Below are positions 21,639 to 23,353 of a stretch of DNA of 64,000 nucleotides, piece by piece. Source of the DNA: Vicinamibacterales bacterium (GTDB lineage: Bacteria; Acidobacteriota; Vicinamibacteria; Vicinamibacterales; SCN-69-37); the NCBI GenBank assembly GCA_030827135.1, contig JAURFE010000001.1:276569-340568 (forward strand), in the 5' to 3' direction. The notes under the pieces were generated by a model, which saw only the letters and a program-made list of their open reading frames with translations, had not been told where the DNA came from and searched no databases. Position 1 is the stretch's first letter; the number at the start of each line of letters is the position of its first letter. Made by a program: the position numbers and the translations under genes.

Positions 21639-22544
21639 ATGTCTTCACTCGTACTTGAAACACACCTGTCCGGTCTCACGCTGCAACGTCGCGGCAAAGT
21701 CCGTGACGTCTACGAGCTCGGCGACACGCTGCTGATCGTGGCGACCGACCGCATCTCGGCCTTTGACTACGTGCTGGGCTCGGGGATTCCCGACAAGGGC
21801 AAAGTCCTGACACAGTTGTCGGCGTTCTGGTTCTCGAAGATGGCCGACCTGGTGCCGCATCACCTGATCTCGGTCAACGTGGACGACTTCCCCGCTGCAG
21901 CGCGCGCGCACGCGGACGTGTTGCGTGGCCGGGCGATGCTCGTGCGCAAGACCACTCCCCTGCAGGTCGAGTGTGTGGCGCGTGGATTCCTGTCGGGTTC
22001 GGGCCTCAAGGACTACAACAAGACCGGTGCGGTGTGCGGCATCCCGCTGCCGCCGGGCCTGCGCGACTCGGCTCGGCTGCCCGAGCCCATCTTCACGCCG
22101 GCGACCAAGGCGGAATCGGGCCACGACGAAAACATCAGCGAGGCCGAGGCCGGCAAGATCGTCGGCGAAGCGCTGATTCAGCGTCTCAAGGCGCTGACGC
22201 TCGAAATTTATTCGCGCGGTGTCGCGCACGCCGAAACCTGCGGCGTGATCATCGCGGATACCAAGTTTGAATTCGGCATCGACGAGACCAGGAACAACGA
22301 GCTGGTGCTCATCGACGAGGTGCTGACGCCCGACTCGTCGCGGTTCTGGCCCAGGGACCAGTACGCGCCCGGCCGCAGCCAGCCCAGCTTCGACAAACAG
22401 TTCGTGCGGGATTACCTGGAAGAGATCGGCTGGAACAAACAGCCGCCGGTCCCCTCCCTGCCTGGCGAAGTCGTCGCGAAGACGCGCGCCAAGTACCTCG
22501 AGGCCTACCGGGTCATCACCGGGCACAACCTGGACGTCGCGTGA
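21639..22544 (+). CDS. purC: SAICAR synthase
   Basis: PurC joins aspartate to CAIR using ATP in purine synthesis. The 301-residue protein is of the longer bacterial/yeast-like type and starts MSSLVLETHLSGLTLQRRGKV. Family motifs are RGKVRDVYELGD, VATDRISAFDYVLGSGIPDKG, ECVARGFLSGSG and LIDEVLTPDSSRFW. The gene overlaps the following Fis-type gene by GTGA, an unusual partner. No other pur genes are present. A small AGAT/ATCT hairpin lies in the 32-base gap upstream. Confidence 0.96.
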   Translation: MSSLVLETHLSGLTLQRRGKVRDVYELGDTLLIVATDRISAFDYVLGSGIPDKGKVLTQLSAFWFSKMADLVPHHLISVNVDDFPAAARAHADVLRGRAMLVRKTTPLQVECVARGFLSGSGLKDYNKTGAVCGIPLPPGLRDSARLPEPIFTPATKAESGHDENISEAEAGKIVGEALIQRLKALTLEIYSRGVAHAETCGVIIADTKFEFGIDETRNNELVLIDEVLTPDSSRFWPRDQYAPGRSQPSFDKQFVRDYLEEIGWNKQPPVPSLPGEVVAKTRAKYLEAYRVITGHNLDVA

Positions 22545-22753
22545 TCAAGGACGACCTCGACACCCTCGTGCAGCACCTGCTCGACCGCGGCGTCTACTTC
22601 GAAGACGCCCAGCGCGAGTTCGAACGCCTGTTCATCGCCCGCGCCCTGGCCAAAACCAACGGCAACGTCTGCAAAGCCGCCAAGATCACCGGCCTGCATC
22701 GCAACACCCTCTCGCGCAAGATTTCGGCGTATCGCATCAAACGCGCGGGCTGA
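22541..22753 (+). CDS. Small Fis-type helix-turn-helix protein
   Basis: This is a 70-residue protein made almost entirely of a Fis/NtrC C-terminal-type DNA-binding domain. A helical dimerisation-like segment (FERLFIARALAKTNGNVCKA) leads into the helix-turn-helix AAKITGLHRNTLSRKISAYR. The start is GTG 22541, overlapping the purC stop as GTGA. It is close in layout to the last 45 residues of NtrC regulators such as the one at 14793, but has no receiver or AAA+ part. It could be a nucleoid-associated protein or local regulator. The function is inferred from the fold only. Confidence 0.78.
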   Translation: MIKDDLDTLVQHLLDRGVYFEDAQREFERLFIARALAKTNGNVCKAAKITGLHRNTLSRKISAYRIKRAG

Positions 22754-22764
22754 ATCACGCCGAA

Positions 22765-22966
22765 CCGACGGCGGATGGGCAGATTCCAGTGCTGCCCTCC
22801 GGCTCGATGACGCGGAAAAAGCGACGCTCCCTGGCGACGTCCCGTCGTCCAGCGCGTGGGGGCCCCAATCCCCACGCGGTGTCACCCCAGTCCGCGTCGC
22901 TTTTTGGACTTCGCCCTCGCGTCACTCGCAGTCGGGCACCACTGGAATCCGCCCATCCGCCGTCGG
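22765..22966. repeat. 202-base nested inverted repeat (very long hairpin)
   Basis: Outer arms of 33 bases (22765-22797 and 22934-22966) pair with only two mismatches; both carry a GACGGCGGATGGGC-type core. Inside are further pairs: TGACGCG (22808-22814) with CGCGTCA (22918-22924), AAAAAGCGACGC (22816-22827) with GCGTCGCTTTTT (22894-22905), and CGCGTGGGG (22853-22861) with CCCCACGCG (22870-22878). The whole region can fold into one long rod. No protein-coding frame is convincing. It could be a MITE-like element or a structured RNA; nothing decides between these. Confidence 0.85.
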
Positions 22967-23055: not shown

Positions 23056-23213
23056 GGTTCATGGTTCATCGGTTCATGGTTCAGCGGTGCCGTTCCGGGT
23101 TCTTGGGTGCGGGGTTCTAGGTTCCAGGTGCGGGGAACCCAGCACCGACCCTGCACCCGGAACCCGATACCCGGAACCCGGGTTCCAGGAACGGCACCAT
23201 GAACCGATGAACC
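23056..23213. repeat. Second intergenic inverted repeat with GGTTCATGG motifs
   Basis: The left arm 23063-23096 (GGTTCATCGGTTCATGG..TGCCGTTCC) pairs with the right arm 23188-23213, except for an 8-base insertion in the left arm. An inner pair is 23120-23135 with 23149-23164 (14 of 16). The left part contains the 29 bases also found at 1493-1521. The tract between is simple-sequence-like, made of GGTTCC/GGAACC variants. It is noncoding and lies between the first long hairpin and the groESL promoter. Confidence 0.8.
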
Positions 23214-23226
23214 ACAGGGCGAGCCC

Positions 23227-23255
23227 TTGACCGGCAGCAGGGGCTCGCCTACAAT
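23227..23255 (+). promoter_or_regulatory. groESL sigma-70 promoter
   Basis: TTGACC (23227-23232) and TACAAT (23250-23255) are separated by exactly 17 bases, close to the sigma-70 consensus. The -35 box sits in the loop of a 9-bp inverted repeat, GGCGAGCCC (23218-23226) with GGGCTCGCC (23241-23249). The first CIRCE operator begins at the last base of the -10 box, so a bound HrcA repressor would block the start site. Confidence 0.85.
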
Positions 23256-23281
23256 TAGCAGTCGGTCACGCGGAGTGCTAA
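23255..23281. promoter_or_regulatory. CIRCE operator 1 (HrcA site)
   Basis: TTAGCAGTC, nine bases, GAGTGCTAA. This matches the CIRCE consensus TTAGCACTC-N9-GAGTGCTAA at 17 of 18 arm positions with the exact spacer. It should bind the HrcA heat-shock repressor. hrcA itself is not in the window. Confidence 0.9.
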
Positions 23282-23304
23282 CACTCAGGGAACCTGAGTG
23301 CCAG
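23278..23304. promoter_or_regulatory. Degenerate second CIRCE-like operator
   Basis: CTAACACTC, nine bases (AGGGAACCT), GAGTGCCAG: 14 of 18 arm matches to CIRCE with the correct N9 spacing, sharing four bases with operator 1. It contains a 7-bp hairpin, ACTCAGG-GAA-CCTGAGT. It could be a weaker HrcA site or an mRNA 5' stem-loop. Confidence 0.65.
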
Positions 23305-23353
23305 CATTACCGCCCAATTGGACCGAATCAAACAGTCCACGGAGCATACACAC

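Follow-up and report, generated by a model that had tools for sequence, protein, structure and literature searches.

A dispersed, rod-forming inverted repeat of soil Acidobacteria with a strand-specific fold

Dispersed palindromes of bacterial genomes are known in several forms. The GTAG/CGTC-tagged REP palindromes of the RAYT/TIRYT systems (PMC3733652) are extragenic and scattered, and in the Acidobacteria tyrosine transposases flanked by TIRs have been reported, some of these TIRs belonging to repeat families (PMC3733652). The element described here is likewise dispersed, extragenic and palindromic; however, REPs comprise 20-40 bp and a tetranucleotide tag, whereas in our element, a rod of ~200 nt, the core is conserved and the arms drift; it lies away from transposase ends. 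MITEs, among them ~235-bp palindromes with AGCCYGGATTATTCAYGAA ends in genome G014, resemble the rod in size, dispersal and nested inverted-repeat organisation, and the same type of terminal repeat encloses the rod in G014 and G030. In contrast to MITEs, the ends of the rod are not common to its copies in most lineages, and its fold is strand-specific. Integron attC sites (PMC2727003) share with it a low sequence conservation, a conserved structure and the use of one folded strand, but the rod is conserved in its apex and core and variable in its outer arms. Finally, Acido-1 and Acido-Lenti-1 (PMC2864571; Rfam RF01686, RF01687) are covarying intergenic RNA candidates of the same phylum, from which the rod differs in being multi-copy (up to 17 per genome), rod-shaped and without an Rfam match. 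The locus is one copy of a scattered family of hairpin elements, apparently undescribed and limited to one order of soil Acidobacteria. It joins structured RNA with a topic which is usually kept separate from it, the dispersed palindromes of bacteria, often written off as debris of MITEs.

Position and architecture of the rod element

The window, i.e. the whole stretch of 64,000 nucleotides analysed, contains the rod element at positions 22765-22966, on the minus strand, which we infer to be the folding one. The locus is intergenic: it begins 11 nt past the stop codon of a gene for a 70-residue Fis-family HTH protein (HTH_8; 22541-22753, plus strand), which itself follows purC, and its far end is 387 nt away from groES. 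The spurious ORFs spanning the element gave no Pfam match, in agreement with the initial annotation, which had seen no gene inside. Its description of a 202-base inverted repeat with 33-base, near-perfect arms and colinear inner arms making up one long rod was confirmed as well. The outer arms (22765-22797 and 22934-22966) match at 31 of 33 positions (94% complementary), and two further pairs, 22816-22834/22887-22905 and 22850-22861/22870-22881, are colinear with them. The sequence of the closing arms is specific to this copy. Between them lies the conserved core (22796-22937, minus strand), which was matched by the covariance model R1 (G000:C11:299364-299505). It contains a 12-bp helix formed by AAAAAGCGACGC (22816-22827) and GCGTCGCTTTTT (22894-22905), a one-sided bulge beside a T tract (22906-22917), which is found family-wide with varying length, and the apical hairpin GCGTGGGG-GCCCCAAT-CCCCACGC (22854-22877), where conservation across the family is highest. 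In this copy, AAAAA/TTTTT border the inner stem. Folded as RNA, the plus strand reaches -134 kcal/mol, compared to a mean of -80.9 (sd 4.2, z -12.7) for dinucleotide shuffles, none of which (0/200) was as good. The minus strand of this copy, with flanks, folds even more strongly (-146 kcal/mol).

The initial annotation had also considered a cruciform-prone site before the heat-shock operon. A link to this operon is not supported: the closest relative (G004) has no rod at the orthologous fis-groES site, its groES promoter region being almost identical, and the other copies adjoin unrelated genes. The rod is therefore not a part of the heat-shock operon. As a separate observation, window positions 23230-23310 contain a promoter of groES that resembles TTGACC/TACAAT, together with an inverted repeat similar to CIRCE (AACACTC-N9-GAGTGCCA), both nearly identical in G004.

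Family, covariation and closing arms

According to the initial annotation, a single-copy sequence without covariation and without a transcript would have spoken against both an RNA and a mobile element; the rod turned out to be multi-copy, and its helices covary strongly. A DNA search found more copies in the own genome and in relatives, and with a covariance model of the core, the own genome yielded four copies and 46 of the order's 162 genomes proved to be carriers, with a maximum of 17 copies per genome. Among 396 genomes across the phylum, the model had matches in the order's own genomes only and none in other orders. Rfam gave no match to any family at the rod element, neither at the gathering cut-off nor at E values up to 2. 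The copies, which stem mostly from draft assemblies, have in common a core of ~140 nt with the nearly invariant apex GCGTGGGGGCCCCCATCCCCACGC. A DNA scan of the whole collection with the exact apex pattern matched only two MAG assemblies, the pattern being too strict for this purpose. Carriage by phages or plasmids was considered and rejected, since the phage and plasmid records contained no rod match and the viral contigs no exact apex match. In the window's genus, a group of copies (L154, L156, L157, L158, L175) has no apical hairpin and a core of 79-95 nt; most of these keep well-paired closing arms.

When 52 copies were aligned by their minus strands, 97.3% of the cells in core helices were paired, and 23 of the 27 core pairs showed double changes, i.e. 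changes on both sides, a number as high as this occurring in 0/500 shuffles. The covariation score was 0.462, compared to 0.147 for shuffles, which do not preserve the relatedness of the sequences, and at most 0.071 with the partner slid, a control which preserves relatedness but is lowered because the structure was derived from the same alignment. Compensatory helix changes beyond chance, as demanded of a structured RNA, are thus present.

The closing arms behave differently from the core. In 86 copies with flanks, they are mostly 20-33 bp long; the median complementarity score is 15 within a copy versus 7 between copies, and 87% of the copies lie above the 95th percentile of the control. For the own genome, the corresponding values are 21.5 and 6.0. 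One locus follows an ABC-transporter gene. Here, a rod occurs at the same place and in the same orientation in G000, G003, G004 and G006, and, cut short, in G001. The upstream flanks of G000 and G004 are 88% identical, those of the other pairs 73-77%. Across at least four species, the arm sequences have diverged yet are still paired. This computation shows that the rod has been maintained vertically at one locus.

Strand asymmetry of the fold

The mismatches between the arms allow one to tell the two strands apart. Were the palindrome relevant at the DNA level only, G.U-type and A.C-type differences between arms should be equally frequent. In window orientation, 95 A.C stand against 33 G.U mismatches (p 4e-8; because the copies are related, this and all p-values below are approximate), and no family shows the opposite direction. 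As an A.C on one strand is a G.U on the other, it is the minus strand which carries the arm mismatches as wobbles. When the copies are split by the direction of neighbouring genes, the ratio G.U:A.C (window orientation) is 12:34 for +/+ and 3:28 for -/-. The bias is unchanged by gene direction and therefore belongs to the element, not to read-through; selection on read-through mRNA was rejected, as the asymmetry does not flip when gene direction changes. Of 86 copies, 76 are more stable when the minus strand is folded; the mean advantage is 9.3 kcal/mol (p 6e-13), compared to -0.7 for flanks, and DNA energy parameters give the same preference.

A second asymmetry concerns the 3x3 internal loops. 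Of the 105 such loops on the minus strand, 91 are of the type GNA/GNA (e.g. CGGAG/CGGAG or CGCAG/CGGAG), and in the copies listed these recur at similar positions. The 3x3 loops of the plus strand are rich in pyrimidines and include no GNA/GNA loop. Tandem sheared G.A pairs of the GNA/GNA type are a stable motif in folded RNA, and also in DNA. Strand-specific wobbles and conserved non-canonical loops, both expected of a structured RNA, were therefore found, but single-stranded DNA is also compatible with them.

That the folded minus strand is under selection is well supported by these results; formally, a mutation bias that is strand-specific and linked to the element could also explain the asymmetry. 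Because one strand is kept able to fold, the element probably acts as structured RNA or as a hairpin of single-stranded DNA, and is more than a palindrome. Note that the comparison of G.U and A.C between the arms, combined with the GNA/GNA loops, shows whether a folded strand is selected or the DNA is merely palindromic, and is applicable to any orphan palindromic repeat.

Nature of the folded molecule

We favour, at about even chances of being right, a rod-shaped structured RNA located on a MITE-like repeat. The minus strand of this dispersed repeat would be kept able to form a rod of ~200 nt, in which a copy-specific closing stem is followed by helices parted by 3x3 GNA/GNA purine loops, a one-sided bulge measures ~7-14 nt, and a GCGUGGGG-loop-CCCCACGC hairpin forms the apex. 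The folded molecule would be an RNA transcribed opposite to purC-fis-groESL, and may bind protein through its loops and apex. Probably, DNA-level palindrome processes (inversion, arm correction) also act on the rod, and the rapid, concerted drift of its arms is probably due in part to arm correction. This structured-RNA reading, which the initial annotation had listed among others, agrees with helix covariation and strand-specific wobbles, and it is favoured by the vertical maintenance at a fixed locus and by the purine loops. It is weakened in two respects. At the minus-strand 5' end of the copies, neither a sigma70-like promoter nor an AT peak was found, so that the search for an own promoter of the rod yielded no candidate. 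In addition, the copies have no preferred orientation to neighbouring genes; consequently, read-through cannot usually supply the RNA. According to gene calls made with a simple codon-usage script, nearly all copies are intergenic, namely 29 in +/+, 21 in -/-, 19 in convergent and 7-9 in divergent contexts. The family may equally well be, or not be, a new class: a rod-shaped RNA (or single-stranded DNA) element that spreads among Acidobacteria within palindromic shells which change, while its core, with the loops, is conserved and its closing stem drifts as long as it pairs on one strand. If it is RNA, it would represent a large RNA family, so far uncharacterised, of a soil lineage that is abundant but little cultured.

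The main rival, which we regard as possible but rather doubtful, is a single-stranded DNA hairpin. Here, the minus strand would fold during replication or transfer and be recognised by a hairpin-specific mobility enzyme, similar to REP/IS200-type or attC systems. Selection of one strand would explain the wobble asymmetry, and mobility the dispersal. The independence of the asymmetry from gene direction and the missing promoter are consistent with this proposal, as are the strand preference under DNA energies and the fact that G.T wobbles and GNA/GNA loops are favourable in single-stranded DNA too. It also accords with the occurrence of the copies, which are multiple, dispersed, non-coding and variably present. 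To this extent the MITE-like element suggested by the initial annotation stands; terminal repeats common to an autonomous element did not turn up, the arms being copy-specific. Also consistent with the proposal, copies in G014 and G030 lie within terminal repeats (AGCCYGGATTATTCAYGAA), family-specific ends which they share, and in G014 the same repeats also bound the ~235-bp MITE-like family, which has no rod. Against the DNA-hairpin proposal, no enzyme partner was found among the transposases. For the copies sharing the G014/G030 ends, no transposase partner was found; none of the 28 Y1_Tnp loci contained a rod copy, as a REP/RAYT pair would; and no Y1 transposases were found in the carriers G010 and G015. 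Mobilisation by Y1 transposases through shared ends was rejected, as other palindromes flank these enzymes, and a retro-element was rejected because RVT_1 is missing in half of the 12 carriers tested. Furthermore, a fixed insertion should decay, yet the rod after the ABC-transporter gene is still paired across species.

At the site corresponding to the fourth copy of the own genome, G004 has no rod, but a deletion is possible, as adjoining bases are missing too. In the two empty G004 sites, divergence or partial deletion obscures any target-site duplication. A target inverted duplication, in which the arms are copied from the insertion site, was also rejected: neither arm is present in the empty G004 sites, one of which is possibly a deletion.

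We consider it improbable that the rod is a plain MITE-like DNA palindrome, in which template switching or gene conversion within the palindrome maintains the likeness of the arms and the folded strand is functionless. Such processes fit the rapid joint drift of the arms at one locus, the arm pairing that persists in apex-less copies and the inversions observed between G000 and G004, which affect copy L003 and the interior of a neighbouring palindrome. They predict neither the 95:33 mismatch asymmetry nor the greater stability of the minus strand nor conserved, mismatched GNA/GNA loops, which arm correction would erase. Equally unlikely is a bidirectional intrinsic terminator at gene ends: the A5/T5 tracts around the inner stem, the start of this copy so close to a stop codon and the excess of convergent over divergent contexts (19 vs 7-9, p 0.03-0.09) are in its favour, but a U tract of at least 4-5 is not common to all copies (TTTTT in 25 and TTTT in 57 of 86 cores), 30-bp arms and conserved loops are unnecessary for termination, and G004 lacks the rod at the orthologous site. 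Bidirectional termination may occur as a by-product where a copy has A5/T5, but long T tracts are not conserved.

Several other palindromes were noted in these genomes. A further long palindrome, unlike the rod and with GGTTCATGGTTC repeats, occupies window positions 23062-23214, between the rod and groES; its interior is the one inverted between G000 and G004, and stretches like it have 45 matches in G000 and 52 in G004, both strands counted. The ~235-bp MITE-like palindromes with AGCCYGGATTATTCAYGAA ends (L246, L252, L262, L263, G014) have 51 pattern matches in the genome. In the window's genus, Y1 transposases (L092, L086, L087) lie between inverted copies of another hairpin of ~50 bp, AAAAAGACGTCGGGTGTCTTTT... 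A GTAG-type, REP-like hairpin, TACGTAGGGCCCGCTGATTTGTAGCGGGCC (flank of L156; L106), recurs in G000 and G004, and in G004 it also flanks a Y1 transposase locus.
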